Shown piece after piece: positions 13,686-64,000 of a DNA stretch of 64,000 nt. A program made the position numbers and the translations under genes. Origin of the DNA: Falsiroseomonas bella (GTDB lineage Bacteria; Pseudomonadota; Alphaproteobacteria; Acetobacterales; Acetobacteraceae); the NCBI RefSeq assembly GCF_003173615.1, contig NZ_QGNA01000004.1, forward strand, positions 124,001 to 188,000, given 5' to 3'. The notes under the pieces are model-generated. The model made no database searches and was not told where the DNA came from. It worked only from the letters and a program-made list of their open reading frames with translations. Within the stretch, counting starts at the first letter, position 1; each line of letters starts with the position of its first letter.

Positions 13686-13840
13686 GGCGGCCCGCACTTC
13701 CGGCGGGCCGAGCGCGCGAATGCGCGCCGCGCACAAACCAACCGCCCAACAGGCGCTACAGTGGCCTGCGCGTCACGCCGAAGGCGTGCCTTCGGCACGA
13801 CGCCAAGCGCGCGGAGCGCGCGCCCGGCGTCTGAGGGCGC
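13686..13840. repeat. Mosaic hairpin repeat, copy 1
   Basis: Fills the gap between the zinc dehydrogenase and lpxXL genes. Going rightwards it holds a hairpin CGGCCCGC/GCGGGCCG (13688-13710), the block GGGCCGAG (13705-13712), stem 1 GCGCGC/GCGCGC with loop near 13718-13721, a non-conserved middle with a CACGCCGAAGGCGTG hairpin, the block CGACGCCAAG (13798-13807), stem 2 (13807-13823) again of GCGCGCG type, and the end block CCCGGCGTCTGAGGGCGC (13823-13840). The blocks recur at 23.8 kb and, inverted, at 61.8 kb. It lies inside an otherwise overlapping operon. Confidence 0.75.
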
Positions 13841-20935: not shown

Positions 20936-21170
20936 CGTGGCAGTCTCCCTCCGGTTCGGTCGTGGATGCCCCGCGGCACCGCGCATCGCGCGGCTGCGCG
21001 CGCGCGTCGGCTAGGGCGCACTGACGGGAGCGTGAAGCAGCGATTGCCGCGAGGCAAGGAAGCATTCGCGCCGCGGCAGCGACGACCGCCCGGCGCGTGG
21101 CTGCATTTCGCGCAATACCGGGACCGCCTGCCGAAGGGCGCGGCAATCGCGCTACACCGCGCACGGAAGG

Positions 21171-21200
21171 CTTGACACCCGGCCCCCCTGCGCGCGGCAA
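21171..21200 (+). promoter_or_regulatory. Possible promoter of the peptide ABC transporter operon
   Basis: CTTGACA at 21171-21177 matches the alphaproteobacterial -35 element. The -10 region 17 bases later (CGGCAA at 21195-21200) is a poor match, so the call rests on the -35 alone. It sits 56 bases upstream of the first gene, in the 297-base gap between divergent transcripts (20936-21232); apart from short GC-rich palindromes near 20980-21012 I see nothing else in that gap. Confidence 0.3.
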
Positions 21201-21232
21201 TCCGTTTTCGCGTCACGCCAGGGAGAGAAATC

Positions 21233-22765
21233 ATGTCGATGCTGACCCGCCGCGCCGCCATGATCGGCGCCACCGCCTTCGGCGTCCTGCCGGTCGCCCG
21301 CCTGGCACAGGCGCAGCCCAGGCCGGATCTGCTGCGCTTCGGCCTTTCCGTCTGGCCGCCGAACCTGCAGCCCTGGCAGTCCGTGGGCCAGGCGGCGGGC
21401 ATGATCAAGATGCTGATCGGGCGGCGGCTGGTCGGCTTCGACGAGAAGGGCGAGCTGCGCGGGGAGCTGGCGCGCGACTTCGGCCGCGACGCCTCGGACG
21501 GCGCCTGGGTCTTCAGGCTGGATCCGCGCGCGGTCTTCCACAACGGCGAGAAGGTGACGTCCGAGGACGTGAAGTGGACGATCGAACAGGTCGCCGGCGA
21601 ACGCTCCACCGCCTACTACCGCGCGCAGATGCAGCGCATCGACCGCATCGAGACGCCCGATGCGCATACCGTGCGGCTGCACATGAAGGAACCCACGGCC
21701 ACGGTGCCGCTGTGGTTCGCCAACTACAACATGCCGATCGTCTGGCGCGGGACGCGGAACATGAACGAGGCGATGGGCTGCGGGCCGTATCGCCTCGCCG
21801 CGCAGGAGCGCGGCAGCTGGATCGAGCTGCAGGCCGTGCCGAACTACTGGGTGCCGGGCCAGCCGCGGACGAAGACGATCCGCATGACGCTCGTCGCCGA
21901 CGAATCGCTGCGCCTTGCGGCGCTGCAATCCGGCGACGTGGACTTCATCGAGTTCGTGCCCTGGACGGGCATGGCCGCCGTGGAGGCCGATCCACGCTTC
22001 AAGCTGGAAAGCACCATGGGGCCGTTCATGGACATCCTGTTCAACGGCACGCGCCCGCCCTTCGACAACCCGCTGGTGCGGCGCGCGGTGGCGCATGCCG
22101 TGAAGCGCGAGGACATCGTGCGCGTGGCCTTCTCGGGCCGCGGCAAGGTGCTGGAAGGCATGCCGATCGTCGAGGGCACGCCCTGGTGGGATGCCGAGCT
22201 CTCGCGCGGGCACAACTACGATCCCGAACGATCCAAGGCGCTGCTGGCGCAGGCCGGCCATGCGAACGGCATCAACACCACGCTGCTCACCACCGGCGCC
22301 TTTGCCATGCACAAGGACAGCGCCGAAGTGGCGCAGCAATACCTCGCTGCCGTCGGCATCCGGGCGGAGCTGCGCGTGGTGGACTGGTCCACGCGCGTCA
22401 GCCAGGGCATCCGCGGCCAGTACGACCTTGCCGTGCACGGCGTGTCGGCCGATTTCAACGACCCGGACGGGCTCACCGTGGTGCTCGACACCTCGCTCTC
22501 GGCCGCGCATGGGCGCAGCTTCGGCCTGAGCGCGCCGCGCACGACGGAGCTGCTGAACAAGGGCCGGCAGGAGTTCGACCACGCCAGGCGCGTCGAGATC
22601 TACAAGGACATGCAGCGCGCGGCGCTCGAGGAAGTGCCGGTCGTCGGGCTGGCCTGGCGCGAGCAGGGCTACGCCTTCGATCGCCGCGTGTCCGGCTTCA
22701 GGATCCTGCCCGGTGCGCTGAGCCTGTCGAGCGGCGTGAACCTGGAGTTCACGAGCGTCGGGTAG
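21233..22765 (+). CDS. Peptide-type ABC transporter substrate-binding protein
   Basis: A 510-residue SBP_bac_5-family receptor. The signal peptide (MSMLTRRAAMIGATAFGVLPVARLAQAQ) contains a twin-arginine-like TRRAAM start, so Tat export is possible. The body shows WVFRLDPRAVFHNGEKVTSED near residues 90-110, GCGPYRLAAQE near residue 182 and the late QAGHANGINTTLLT segment typical of oligopeptide receptors. GGGAGAG precedes the ATG. The stop overlaps the permease start by one base (TAGTG at 22763-22767), placing it first in a five-gene operon. The ligand is probably a peptide or amino-acid derivative, but it cannot be read from sequence. Confidence 0.93.
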   Translation: MSMLTRRAAMIGATAFGVLPVARLAQAQPRPDLLRFGLSVWPPNLQPWQSVGQAAGMIKMLIGRRLVGFDEKGELRGELARDFGRDASDGAWVFRLDPRAVFHNGEKVTSEDVKWTIEQVAGERSTAYYRAQMQRIDRIETPDAHTVRLHMKEPTATVPLWFANYNMPIVWRGTRNMNEAMGCGPYRLAAQERGSWIELQAVPNYWVPGQPRTKTIRMTLVADESLRLAALQSGDVDFIEFVPWTGMAAVEADPRFKLESTMGPFMDILFNGTRPPFDNPLVRRAVAHAVKREDIVRVAFSGRGKVLEGMPIVEGTPWWDAELSRGHNYDPERSKALLAQAGHANGINTTLLTTGAFAMHKDSAEVAQQYLAAVGIRAELRVVDWSTRVSQGIRGQYDLAVHGVSADFNDPDGLTVVLDTSLSAAHGRSFGLSAPRTTELLNKGRQEFDHARRVEIYKDMQRAALEEVPVVGLAWREQGYAFDRRVSGFRILPGALSLSSGVNLEFTSVG

Positions 22766-23715
22766 TGCTCTACGTCGCGAAGCGCATCGCCATCTCCCTG
22801 GTGCTGGTCTGGGTGGTGGCGACGGTGGTGTTCCTCGCCCTGCACATGGTGCCGGGCGACCCGGCCGAGGTGCTGCTCTCCACCGGCGGCACCTCGCCCG
22901 ATCCCTATGCCGTGGCCGAGCTGCGCGAACGGCTGGGGCTCGATCGGCCCATCATGGTGCAATACGGGGAGTTCATCGCGCGCCTTGCGCGCGGCGACCT
23001 CGGCACCTCGCTGGTGGACGACTATCCGGTGGCGGAGGAGATCCTGCTGCGCCTGCCGCGCACGCTGGAGCTGATCCTGGCCGGCACGCTGATCGCCGTG
23101 AGCATCGCGCTGCCGGCGGCGACCTATGCGGCGGTGCATGCCGGCGGCGCCTTCGACCGCGCGGCGTCGGCCGTCGCGGCCATCCTGCAGGCGCTGCCGG
23201 TCTTCGTGCTCGGCACGCTGCTGATCCTGGTGCTGGCGCAATGGCTGCGCTGGATGCCGGCCGGCGGCTACGTGCCCTTCGCGCAGGATCCGGGGCGGCA
23301 TCTTCTGCTGCTGCTGCTGCCCGCGGTCGCGGTGGCGAAGGGGCTTGCGGCCACCGTCTTCCGCATGGCGCGCGCGGCGGTGCTGGAACAGCTCTCCCGC
23401 GATCATGTGCGCACGGCGCGTGCCAAGGGGCTGACGCCGCGACGCGTGGTGCGGCGCCATGTGGTGCGCAACGCGATGATCCCGGTCACCACCGTGCTCG
23501 GCCTGCAGATGGGCACGCTGCTGGGCGGCACCGTGCTGGTCGAGTTCGTGTTCAACTGGCCGGGCCTGTCCACGCCGCTGCTGCGGGCGGTGGAGACGCG
23601 GGACTACCCGATGGTCGTCGGCATCGTGCTGACCGTCTCCGGCCTGTTCCTGCTGATCAACCTGGCGATGGACCTTCTCTACGCCGTGCTCGATCCGCGG
23701 ATCGCACGCTCGTGA
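22765..23715 (+). CDS. ABC transporter permease, DppB type
   Basis: A 316-residue inner-membrane permease. It begins with a membrane helix (ISLVLVWVVATVVFLALHMVPGDPAEVLL), the hallmark N-terminus of DppB/GsiC-type permeases including the conserved PGDP. The EAA loop lies in RDHVRTARAKGLTPRRVVRRHVVRNAMIP-type sequence near residues 212-240, and about six membrane helices are visible. The start is a GTG at 22765 overlapping the previous stop by one base. The following gap to the next gene is occupied by a hairpin repeat, unusual inside a transporter operon. Confidence 0.93.
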   Translation: MLYVAKRIAISLVLVWVVATVVFLALHMVPGDPAEVLLSTGGTSPDPYAVAELRERLGLDRPIMVQYGEFIARLARGDLGTSLVDDYPVAEEILLRLPRTLELILAGTLIAVSIALPAATYAAVHAGGAFDRAASAVAAILQALPVFVLGTLLILVLAQWLRWMPAGGYVPFAQDPGRHLLLLLLPAVAVAKGLAATVFRMARAAVLEQLSRDHVRTARAKGLTPRRVVRRHVVRNAMIPVTTVLGLQMGTLLGGTVLVEFVFNWPGLSTPLLRAVETRDYPMVVGIVLTVSGLFLLINLAMDLLYAVLDPRIARS

Positions 23716-23827
23716 CGGCCGCAGGCTGGCACGTGGCGGCCTGCGCAGCAGGCCGAGGCCGCGAAGGCGGCCCGCTAATGCGGCGAAGCCAAGGCCGCGG
23801 ATGCGGCCGCCCGGCGCTTGAGGGCGC
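23716..23827. repeat. Mosaic hairpin repeat, copy 2, abutting a start codon
   Basis: Begins right after the permease stop and ends at the base before the next ATG. It contains a perfect hairpin GGCCTGC/GCAGGCC (23738-23744 with 23748-23754), the block GGCCGAG (23751-23757), stem 1 GGCCGC/GCGGCC (23757-23762 with 23767-23772), the block CCGCTAATGCGGCGAAGCCA (23773-23792), stem 2, also GGCCGC/GCGGCC (23793-23798 with 23803-23808), and the end block CCGGCGCTTGAGGGCGC (23811-23827). The GAGGG in the end block is the only candidate ribosome-binding sequence for the downstream gene. Confidence 0.8.
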
Positions 23828-25647
<1,820 letters not shown>

Positions 25648-25648
<1 letters not shown>

Positions 25649-61689: not shown

Positions 61690-61905
61690 CTCTCCCTCCC
61701 GGGAGCCGGCCATCTACCCCCATCCGGCCGGCATCCCCACTCGGGCGGCGCCCCCTCGGGCTCCGCCCATTTTTTTGGGCCCTTCGTTTCGGCCGTAGGC
61801 TTCACCTTCGGCCCTCAGACGCCGGCGCTGCGCTTGGCTTCGCCGCATGAGCGGCGGCGCCCGTTCGGGCGCTCGGCCGGCATGACGCCGGCCGGGGGGC
61901 TTCAG
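61690..61905. repeat. Hairpin array including mosaic repeat copy 3 (inverted)
   Basis: A chain of hairpins after the MFS gene (minus-strand sense). From the right: GGGGCTGAAGCCCC (61901-61914 region, containing the MFS stop), CCGGCCGGCGTCATGCCGGCCG, block GGCCGAG (61872-61878), stem 1 GCGCCC/GGGCGC (61857-61872), block CCGCTCATGCGGCGAAGCCA (61835-61854), a shortened stem 2 (61825-61833) and end block GCCGGCGTCTGAGGGC (61811-61826). Further left are a GCCCAT-T6-GGGC stem (61765-61780), GGGCGG/CCGCCC and GGCCGGC/GCCGGCC hairpins. The blocks match copies at 13.7 and 23.8 kb. Confidence 0.7.
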
Positions 61906-63014
61906 CCCCGCCCGCGATAGGCCACCGCGCAGGCCGCCAGGCTGAGCGCGAAACCCACGCCGAACACCGCCGCATGGCTGTCCCCGGTGGCGCCGAACAG
62001 GGCCGCGAGGCCAAAGGCGAAGCTGACCTGCGCCACGCCATACGCCGCCGTCGCCCGCACCCAGATCACGCCGGCGCGCGCCCCGGCCACCTCCCGCGCC
62101 GCGACCAGCGTCACGGCCGTGGCGCCCACCCCGGCGAAGCCGCTGAGCGGCCCGGCCAGGATCAGCGCCGGCCAGGCCGGCACCAGCGCCGACCCCAGCG
62201 CCGCCACCTGCACCACCATCCAGGCCAGCAGTGCGCGCCGCCCGCCGATCCTGCCCGCCAGCCGCCCCCCCAACATGGTGCCGAGCAGGGCGCCGAGCCC
62301 GAAGCCGATCCACACCGCCGCGCCGGCCTCGATCGGCAGGCCCCGGCCACGCACCGCGAGATCCGAGAGATAGACCATCGGCGCCACCATCCCGGCACCC
62401 GAGAGCGCATAGGCCAGCAGCAGCAGCCCCGCCCGCGGCACGGCGGAGCGCGTTTCCTCCGGCGGCAGGGCGGGCGGATCGGGCCAGTGGCGGCGCGCCG
62501 CCCACCAGACCGCCGCGGTCGCCGCCGCCAGCCCGAGCCAGGCGGTGGGAATGCCGCCGCCGAGCAGCAGCGGGATGGCGAGCCCCCCGGCCACCACGCC
62601 GGCGCCCACCCCCGTCATCACGATGCCGCTGGCCGCGCCGCGCCGCTCGGGCGGCACGCTTGCCTGGGCCGAGGGGCCGGCGAGCGCCATCAGCACGCCT
62701 CCCGCCGTCCCGGCCAGCGCCCGCCAGGCGAGCAGCCAGACCAGCCCGCCCTGCCAGGCGCAGGCCGCGAAGGCCGCGACCGCCAGCGCCATGCCGGCAT
62801 CGAGCGCGCGCGGCACCCCGATCCGCGCCGCCAGCCGCCGCCCTGCCAGCACGCCGAGCAGGTAGCCGGCGAAATTCCCCGCGCCGAGCAGCCCCGCCTC
62901 GGCCCCGTCCACCCACCCGGCCGCAACCATGGCGGGGAACAGCGGCACATAGGCGAAGCGCGCCAGCCCGACCCCGGCGAGGATTGCGCCCGCCGCCGCC
63001 CAGGCCACCTTCAT
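61902..63014 (-). CDS. YbfB/YjiJ-family MFS transporter
   Basis: A 370-residue inner-membrane transporter with about twelve helices, of the YbfB/YjiJ branch of the major facilitator superfamily. Family features are the N-terminal AGVGLARFAYVPLFPAMVAAGWVD, the DGAEAGLLGAGNFAGYLLG segment and the later GFGLGALLGTMLGGRLAGRIGGRRAL loop. The start at 63014 (MKVAWAAAG) begins the first helix; an ATG at 63056 would add 14 residues. Its stop TGA lies inside the stem GGGGCTGAAGCCCC of the downstream hairpin array. Substrate unknown. Divergent from the DegP-like protease gene. Confidence 0.87.
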   Translation of the reverse strand: MKVAWAAAGAILAGVGLARFAYVPLFPAMVAAGWVDGAEAGLLGAGNFAGYLLGVLAGRRLAARIGVPRALDAGMALAVAAFAACAWQGGLVWLLAWRALAGTAGGVLMALAGPSAQASVPPERRGAASGIVMTGVGAGVVAGGLAIPLLLGGGIPTAWLGLAAATAAVWWAARRHWPDPPALPPEETRSAVPRAGLLLLAYALSGAGMVAPMVYLSDLAVRGRGLPIEAGAAVWIGFGLGALLGTMLGGRLAGRIGGRRALLAWMVVQVAALGSALVPAWPALILAGPLSGFAGVGATAVTLVAAREVAGARAGVIWVRATAAYGVAQVSFAFGLAALFGATGDSHAAVFGVGFALSLAACAVAYRGRG

Positions 63015-63110
63015 GGCGCCGCCCTGCCGGTTGAATGCGGGGCGGCACTTCTCCATGCTGCGCTGCCACAAGGATCGGCGGCGCCGCTGCCATTGCCCCG
63101 ACGAGGCACC

Positions 63111-64000
63111 ATGTCCCACCCCATCGGCCGCCGCGCCGCGGCCGCGCTGGTTCTTCTGCCCTTCGCCGGATGCGGCGGCCTGCCCGCGGCCCGCGCCCAG
63201 CGTGGCGCCGCGGCGCTACCGGATTTCGCCGACCTCGCGGAACGCGTGCTGCCTGCCGTCGTCAACATCGCGGTCACCTCCGAGCAGCGGACGGAGGTGC
63301 CGCCGGAGTTGCGTGGCACGCCCTTCGAGCGATTCTTCCGCGACCGCCGCGGCCGCAGCCGGCAGAGCCAGGGCGCGGGGTCCGGCTTCATCATGGACCC
63401 GGCCGGGCTGGTGGTCACGGCCAACCACGTCGTCGGCAATGCCAGCCGGGTCGTGGTCTCGCTGCAGGATGGCGAGGAATACGTTGCCCGCGTCGTCGGC
63501 TCCGACGACCTGACCGACCTCGCCCTGCTGCGGGTCGAGGCCCGCGCACCGCTGCCCTCGGTGCCCTGGGGCAGTTCCGCGGCGCTCCGGGTCGGGCAAT
63601 GGGTGCTGGCGGCGGGCAATCCCTTCGGGCTCGGCGGCACCGTCACCTCCGGCATCCTCTCGGCCCGCGGGCGCGACATCGGCTCCGGCCCCTATGACGA
63701 CTTCCTGCAGACCGATGCGCCGATCAACCCGGGAAATTCCGGCGGGCCGTTGTTCAACACGGCGGGCGAGGTGGTGGGTATCAACACGGCGATCTTCTCG
63801 CCCAGCGGCGCCAGCGCCGGCATCGGCTTCGCCGTGCCCTCCGACCTCGCCCGGCCGATCATCGAGCAGCTGCGCGCCGGCGGCCGGGTGGAGCGTGGGT
63901 GGCTCGGCGTCAGCCTGGAAGACATCGAGGCGGATGAAGCGGGACGCCGGCGGAATGCGGGGCGTGGCGTGGTGGTCGCGGGCGTGGTGCGCGGCAGCCC
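63111..64000 (+). CDS. DegP/HtrA-like periplasmic serine protease, 3' end outside the window
   Basis: The first 296 residues of an S1C protease. The N-terminus MSHPIGRRAAAALVLLPFAGCGG is an export signal with a possible lipobox (FAGC, Cys21). The catalytic triad is complete: His in TANHVVGNAS near residue 106, Asp in DDLTDLALLRV near residue 138 and Ser in NPGNSGGPLFN near residue 212. The last 20 residues begin the first PDZ domain (RGWLGVSLEDIEADEA). GAGG precedes the ATG. It degrades or refolds damaged envelope proteins. The frame is open to the last base. Confidence 0.92.
   Translation, partial: MSHPIGRRAAAALVLLPFAGCGGLPAARAQRGAAALPDFADLAERVLPAVVNIAVTSEQRTEVPPELRGTPFERFFRDRRGRSRQSQGAGSGFIMDPAGLVVTANHVVGNASRVVVSLQDGEEYVARVVGSDDLTDLALLRVEARAPLPSVPWGSSAALRVGQWVLAAGNPFGLGGTVTSGILSARGRDIGSGPYDDFLQTDAPINPGNSGGPLFNTAGEVVGINTAIFSPSGASAGIGFAVPSDLARPIIEQLRAGGRVERGWLGVSLEDIEADEAGRRRNAGRGVVVAGVVRGS

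Follow-up and report, generated by a model that had tools for sequence, protein, structure and literature searches.

The stretch of DNA analysed here, referred to below as the window, comprises 64,000 nucleotides of the Falsiroseomonas bella genome and holds three copies of a folded intergenic element, whose cores were located by cmsearch (Table 1). Copy 2 is found between two ABC-permease genes that, as read from the sequences, abut or overlap in 10 relatives, and all 10 relatives aligned at this position are missing the insert, the exact limits of which we infer. The TGA stop codon of the upstream gene is read as the 5′ copy of a 3-bp target duplication, and the putative 3′ copy is placed by the TNA rule that holds at other insertions described below. 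Copy 3 is situated immediately 3′ of the stop codon of an MFS transporter gene (ORF 61902-63119, Pfam MFS_4). Copy 1 contains an additional hairpin (about 13773-13799) that the copy at the same locus in genome G008 does not have. At that locus hairpin D of G008 reads GGCCGC-gga-GCGGCC, i.e., both of its arms have changed together relative to the window, a paired change for which gene conversion could be an alternative source.

Table 1. Coordinates of the element copies in the window, of their parts and of the adjoining codons.
Feature	Position	Strand	Basis or remark
Copy 1, core, long-C type with extra hairpin inserted	13689..13838	+	cmsearch, 45 bits
Copy 1, hairpin D, GCGCGC-gga-GCGCGC	13807..13821	+	
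TGA stop of upstream ABC-permease gene (ORF 21097-23715, Pfam BPD_transp_1)	23713..23715	+	read as 5′ copy of target duplication
Copy 2, inserted segment, 119 bp (eroded 5′ end, core, eroded 3′ end)	23716..23834	+	
Copy 2, folded core A-B-C-D-E	23738..23825	+	cmsearch, 85.4 bits
Copy 2, hairpin A, GGCCTGC-gca-GCAGGCC	23738..23754	+	sequence; covarying helix 1
Copy 2, hairpin B, GGCCGC-gaag-GCGGCC	23757..23772	+	sequence; helix 2
Copy 2, hairpin C, shortened in this copy	23773..23785	+	sequence; helix 3
Copy 2, conserved linker AAGCCAAG, final G also first base of hairpin D	23786..23793	+	
Copy 2, hairpin D, GGCCGC-ggat-GCGGCC	23793..23808	+	helix 4
Copy 2, block E, GCCC-ggcgcttga-GGGC	23809..23825	+	helix 5; nearly invariant
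ATG start of downstream ABC-permease gene (ORF 23828-25648, Pfam BPD_transp_1), directly 3′ of core	23828..23830	+	
TGA read as 3′ copy of target duplication	23835..23837	+	sequence compared with empty sites
Copy 3, core, hairpin D eroded	61811..61893	-	cmsearch, 64.4 bits

The core of the element is about 90 nt long and consists, in this order, of hairpin A (stem of about 7 bp), the dinucleotide GA, hairpin B (6 bp, loop mostly GAAn), hairpin C (6 bp), the linker AAGCCAAG, hairpin D (5-6 bp, loop GGA or GGAT) and block E, CGCCCGGCGnnTGAGGGC. A first-pass annotation of the window had described three elements built of common blocks and two hairpins; the blocks are real and the hairpin structure stands, but four hairpins are present instead of two, in addition to block E. 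Single blocks searched alone with mismatches allowed were not more frequent in the window than expected by chance, so that the evidence lies in the whole architecture and in the copy number. Conservation is higher in the linkers and in several loop bases than at inner positions of the stems: GA, AAGCCAAG, GGA and CGCCCGGCGnnTGAGGG are nearly fixed while the stems turn over. A second form of the core, of which six copies were aligned, has a long C. In this variant, found at window positions 13689-13838 and at loci L010, L016, L021, L025, L027 and L030, hairpin C is replaced by GCGCACAAACC...GTGGCCTGCGCG; it coexists with the short form.

Pairing had been said to be kept while the sequence changes, and covariation confirms this in own-genome as well as multi-genome alignments. 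Among 18 copies of the source genome, 90.1% of the cells are paired and the covariation score is 0.285 vs. 0.088 after shuffling. For 36 cores from 18 genomes and 10 genera, aligned with MAFFT without structure, the corresponding values are 93.4% and 0.403 vs. 0.110 (sd 0.011), and the score falls to 0.035-0.059 when the partners are slid. Four of five covariation measures were matched by at most one of 500 shuffles (0, 0, 1, and 0), and the 17 pairs changed on both sides in the 36 cores were reached by 21 of 500. Covariation is thus far above both the shuffled and the slid-partner controls, which supports a structured nucleic-acid element over a random GC-rich spacer. By helix, the paired cells of the 36 cores amount to 77.5% for A, which is poorly aligned in this set, 100% for B, 99.5% for C, 95.3% for D and 97.2% for E; RNAalifold recovered B, C, D, and E from the same cores, but not A. 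Block E pairs without covariation, no pair of the 36 cores being changed there on both sides. For most copies the search model itself rewards pairing, a bias that the BLAST matches do not share. From 184 cmsearch matches, 164 were used (the 20 omitted were mostly weak, partial or secondary), and removal of 7 duplicates left 157 distinct copies, of which the 141 not exceeding 105 nt were aligned for a first count of wobble pairs, 17 G-T vs. 8 A-C. Addition of 25 of 25 and 52 of 64 matches of two further searches brought the set to 228 copies, in which mismatches occupy few of 1606 cells (16 G-T, 6 A-C and 32 other). The asymmetry of 16 to 6 (p 0.052) does not prove selection on a single RNA strand.

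The first-pass annotation had further proposed that the two stems of one copy match and could therefore exchange partners, giving alternative folds of B and D. The B and D arms are indeed equal in window copies 1 and 2. However, among the 95 of 121 genus copies in which both stems were readable, B equals D in 20, against 20.06 when D is shuffled among copies, and the own-genome copies give 7 of 39 against 5.83 expected. The stems draw on a repertoire of GGCCGC, GCGGCC, GGCGCC, GCGCCC, GCGCGC, and GCCGCC, and the equality seen in copies 1 and 2 looks like a coincidence of this small repertoire. With matches at chance level, partner exchange as a general property is refuted, there is no special reason to propose it, and it must be regarded as highly improbable.

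The element is abundant in its host. At E<=10, BLAST of the source genome with copy 2 as query gave 54 match rows, in some cases two for the pieces of a single copy, and a covariance model built from 18 short-form copies, with the structure supplied by hand, gave at least 99 matches at E<=1 and at least 64 at E<=0.001, which are lower bounds from 150 scored candidates of 19915. All 15 genomes of the genus (the source included) have matches, 15 to 89 each at E<=0.001. With stricter filters, under which weak matches are lost, matches were obtained in 22 of 150 genomes drawn from the family (16 of 102 genera) and in 22 of 150 drawn from the order (6 of 41 genera), the latter 22 all belonging to the family of the source organism. 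An exact-pattern scan of the genome collection returned 68 stretches, mostly from the Roseomonas-like genera Neoroseomonas, Roseomonas, Falsiroseomonas, Roseicella, Siccirubricoccus, and Rhodovarius, and also from Telmatospirillum, Magnetospirillum, Paramagnetospirillum, Terasakiella, one record titled Erythrobacter vulgaris, and MAGs; the 20 stretches beyond the named Roseomonas-like genera were inspected. Telmatospirillum copies, e.g., L248, end in TTATACCAA...TTGGTATTA and have their parts in the same order, but the stems differ. The earlier suggestion of a multi-copy intergenic family in Roseomonas-like bacteria is thereby supported, and the remark that its blocks were not recognised as a named family agrees with Rfam (4227 families), which has no match in the window at gathering thresholds and none over the core in five loci searched at E<=1. 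A weak match to RF01696 (E 0.36, below cut-off) begins 3 bases past the core of L131. Searches of openly licensed literature returned no description of this element family and no paper on miniature inverted-repeat elements of Roseomonas.

Intact copies, which occur in genome G196, where they are young, and in the genus, begin with TACCAACGGC or TACCAGC, followed by the core, roughly 10 nt and a terminal hairpin whose last bases are GGTA. They represent a MITE about 155-165 bp long, bounded by the inverted ends TACCAACGGC...GCCGTTGGTA and flanked by a TNA duplication of 3 bp. Both ends were recognised in 44 of 157 copies, the other 113 having no recognised end pair, and 35 of the 44 measure 154-165 bp with both duplications included. 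Identical 3-bp flanks border 30 of the 44 (17 TGA, 11 TCA, 1 TTG, and 1 TAA); in five of the 44, the pattern used to recognise ends has probably settled on a site inside the element (3′ triplet GCG). When seven genomes were searched by pattern, 16 facing end pairs spanning 145-206 bp were counted by eye; they overlap in part with the 44 two-ended copies, and all 16 agree at the variable base. For five insertions of genome G013, the site is uninterrupted in the relatives G001, G006 or G009, with a single TCA or TGA triplet at four of them and a diverged sequence in the relative at the fifth (L209); no core was found in any of the eight empty-site loci of relatives. One 20-kb region compared between G196 and its relatives gave no clean empty site: at one element there, 328 bases of G196, about twice the length of the element, stand opposite 3 bases of the closest relative. 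Arrays of head-to-tail units were observed at L176 and L178 (G008), L225-L226 (G025), L235 (G086), L098 (own genome), L132 (G196), and L189 (G013). The terminal palindrome is found only at the array end in L132 and L189; in L225 and L226, hairpin A, C or D varies between the units of a single array.

The ends have fared differently from genome to genome. A recognisable end was found in 35 of 36 copies of G196 and in 24 of 63 copies of the other genus genomes. In G196 the left end, present in 31 of 36 (control 1), is the better evidence since the control for the right end is high (10 of 36). In the source genome the ends of 58 copies are at control level (0 left and 1 right, controls 3 and 2), and a search of that genome for the end motif gave one forward match and one reverse (controls 0 and 2).

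Placement relative to genes was assessed with open frames rather than annotations. Where the duplication is TGA or TCA, that TGA ends an open frame of at least 100 codons in 20 of 28 insertions, vs. 709 of the 3272 TGA lying at least 600 bases into either strand of the same loci (p 2.6e-8); selection against gene disruption alone, without any choice of target, could be the cause. Of 228 copies, 15 were skipped for short flanks and 63 were not assignable to a neighbour class; the 150 classified copies comprise 82 between convergent genes, 64 between co-directional genes and 4 between divergent genes. Since convergent and divergent pairs are about equal in number on a circular chromosome, 82 vs. 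4 denotes a strong bias toward gene ends. At a TGA target the left duplication restores the stop codon and the right GGTA followed by TGA contains an ATG, as read from sequence, so that insertion into an ATGA overlap can leave both genes readable. Copy 2, as read, would be an insertion into such a stop/start overlap with both permease genes left readable. The TNA rule and the TACC...GGTA ends together provide a simple sequence account of transposon entry into an ATGA operon junction. A junction of genes that we take to be paaB/paaC-like (L097:8658-8771) contains the element in the own genome and a different repeat-like insert, of the CCCTCTCCCGC...GCGGGAGAGGGT type, in G008 (L105); two kinds of insert have thus used the same gene junction. 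Another core copy (L097:11211-11291, own contig C1 near 1,139.7 kb) lies between blocks matching contigs C6 and C4 of G008, at an apparent rearrangement breakpoint.

These contexts bear on the possibility that the core is a strand-specific RNA, either a small RNA or a cis-regulator, spread by the transposon. Covarying stems with nearly invariant unpaired motifs would suit such a molecule, as would the weak wobble excess on the reported strand. Yet co-directional neighbours show no strand preference (28 sense vs. 36 antisense), the 82 copies between convergent genes have no gene next in the direction of transcription, and Rfam has no match, all of which makes a strand-specific RNA improbable.

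A partner that could have moved the element is present in related genomes. Genome G003 contains a 1.18-kb element with the ten terminal bases of the MITE at its left end, a near copy of them at its right end, and TGA on both sides. Its transposase is broken and was searched in pieces, which match NCBIfam transpos_IS630 (1.1e-21 and 4.9e-18, each below the whole-protein cut-off) as well as Pfam HTH_29 and DDE_3. In all, five IS630-family elements were read at both ends, one in G003 and four in G004, with TACC...GGTA ends. The flanking triplets are TGA/TGA in G003 and TTA/TTA, TCA/TCA, TTA/TTA, and CCA/TCA in G004, i.e., identical TNA triplets at four of five, and ten IS copies of G013, read at the left end only, lie at a TNA site in 10 of 10 cases. 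The ten terminal bases of the genus MITE were found in the G003 element only; the G004 elements have TACC and the TNA rule in common with it, and in both G013 and G004 the IS ends are related to those of the MITE. IS630 elements usually duplicate a 2-bp TA. That duplication was not encountered here, where the MITE has a 3-bp TNA duplication and identical triplets flank four of five IS, and no paper joining IS630 with a 3-bp TNA duplication was found in the openly licensed literature. At E<=1e-15 no match to the transposase was obtained in the own genome, so that mobility there looks to be a thing of the past. What the window contains are eroded representatives of this MITE, whose ends are TACC...GGTA, whose target duplication is TNA and whose partner is of the IS630 family.

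Several contigs of G013 end in an IS630-family element (among L315, L318, L321, L323, L325, and L327-L331), suggesting that this IS is multi-copy, probably recently active and breaking the assembly. Just 5′ of its transposase start (L315-L323) stands GCGCCTGAGGGCGG, which resembles block E of the core (GGCGCCTGAGGGC); the likeness may be due to chance or may indicate the origin of block E. In six of six IS630-family loci (L193, L315, L316, L319, L322, and L324), GACTC is located 20 bases inside the left end. This is a GANTC, the CcrM-type methylation site, and GANTC density is 2.78 per kb in complete elements of the genus and 7.16 per kb in those of G196 vs. 0.95 per kb in the loci overall. 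Methylation could conceivably serve as a timer of transposition.

Several known repeat families resemble this one in part. RUP of Streptococcus pneumoniae, compared by description only, is likewise a MITE (107 bp, 108 intergenic repeats) with IS630-family-like ends, for which mobilisation by IS630-Spn1 has been proposed; it inserts at TA-containing sites, in contrast to the 3-bp TNA duplication here, and the consulted portion of its description mentions no covarying multi-hairpin core (PMC2229807). The Correia/NEMIS elements of Neisseria (about 107 and 155 bp) have inverted ends too, but these are 24 bp long with TA, whereas the ends here are different and enclose four separate covarying hairpins; RNA structures of MITEs are reported to take part in regulating adjacent mRNAs (PMC2229807). 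CIR of Caulobacter and Brucella are also alphaproteobacterial intergenic repeats with separately folding arms and a linker, but are described there as lacking the inverted ends present here (PMC2229807). The GANTC motif, exposed in CIR, gives a mixed picture in the present family: it is not conserved in the cores of genus copies, being absent from both consensus sequences examined and from all 58 own cores, yet many intact copies have it, with 25 of 36 among the G196 cores and 28 of 44 among the complete elements. MRSC-type repeats such as MRSC-65-2 also have a covarying structure and a suspected transposase partner, occur in dozens per genome and lie in inconsistent orientation, which is taken as a sign of mobility; MRSC-65-2 is nevertheless a single long stem with UYCCGG repeats, unlike the four hairpins, block E, defined ends and defined duplication seen here (PMC11109978). 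MITEPye1 of Paracoccus yeei is an alphaproteobacterial, preferentially intergenic MITE with inverted ends and predicted stem-loops, but it differs in its IS1182-family link, its 1-3 copies per chromosome and its long stem-loop (PMC11578231). A REP/BIME-type element moved by a RAYT, or a CGTC-type REP, would also be palindromic, intergenic and of high copy number, and CGTC does occur in some E blocks. However, CGTC is not conserved in block E (GGCGnnTGAGG, the bases after GGCG being variable), inverted ends, a 3-bp duplication and an IS630 partner do not fit a REP, and CGTC REPs were reported missing from Acetobacteraceae (PMC3733652), which makes this the least probable of the readings considered.

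The persistence of the core calls for an explanation of its own. The 30 parsable copies of the source genome have Watson-Crick pairs in 356 of 360 B and C cells, and the 28 parsable ones among the young G196 copies in 328 of 336; parsing required some outer bases, which favours pairing. As the ends are gone from the source genome and the hairpins persist, something maintains the core, and what is maintained is the folded form, as RNA or as DNA. Mutation rather than selection might do so if template switching within short palindromes rewrites one arm from its partner (quasipalindrome correction), without any function. Discrete stem variants with few intermediates, as the mismatch counts above indicate, and the lack of orientation bias agree with this, but quasipalindrome correction alone does not predict linkers and loop bases that stay fixed amid stem turnover, and it leaves unexplained why the ends, terminal hairpin included, have gone from the own genome while the core is still paired; it is rather unlikely to be the answer. 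Alternatively, transposition itself might require the core, which the transposase or a host factor would bind in hairpin or single-stranded form, so that only folding copies spread. The folding of the young G196 copies and, again, the absence of orientation bias are in keeping with such a role. Against it, MITEs are generally mobilised via their ends, copies without recognisable ends still pair, and none of the five end-to-end IS630 elements contains a core, the two matches obtained at E<=1 (0.43 and 0.73) both lying outside the IS; the IS loci of G013, cut off by contig ends, say little on core content. We consider a need in transposition no likelier than quasipalindrome correction.

The best explanation, which we hold with good though not complete confidence, is a non-autonomous MITE-type family with TACC...GGTA ends and a folded core, moved by a TNA-inserting transposase of the IS630 type. 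The transposase would act in trans, and selection would act on the core as a folded strand. Where transcription runs past the end of a gene, from either side, the hairpins may then protect or insulate the mRNA end, a role to which we would give somewhat less than an even chance; it would explain both the survival of the core in the source genome after the transposon ends were lost and the indifference to orientation. More tentatively still, the core may be an exapted mRNA-end module, a folded unit under selection across Roseomonas-like genera as well as Telmatospirillum, Magnetospirillum, and Terasakiella (the cores of these last three being known by exact-pattern matches), which rode an IS630-type transposon with termini that preserve stop and start codons on insertion, and which hosts kept after the ends of that transposon had decayed. 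The family unites two things usually found apart, namely a strictly defined short transposon and a strongly covarying multi-hairpin core that outlives its ends. Dozens of gene-end copies per genome, together with empty sites in sister species, constitute natural test pairs for effects on mRNA ends and operon coupling.
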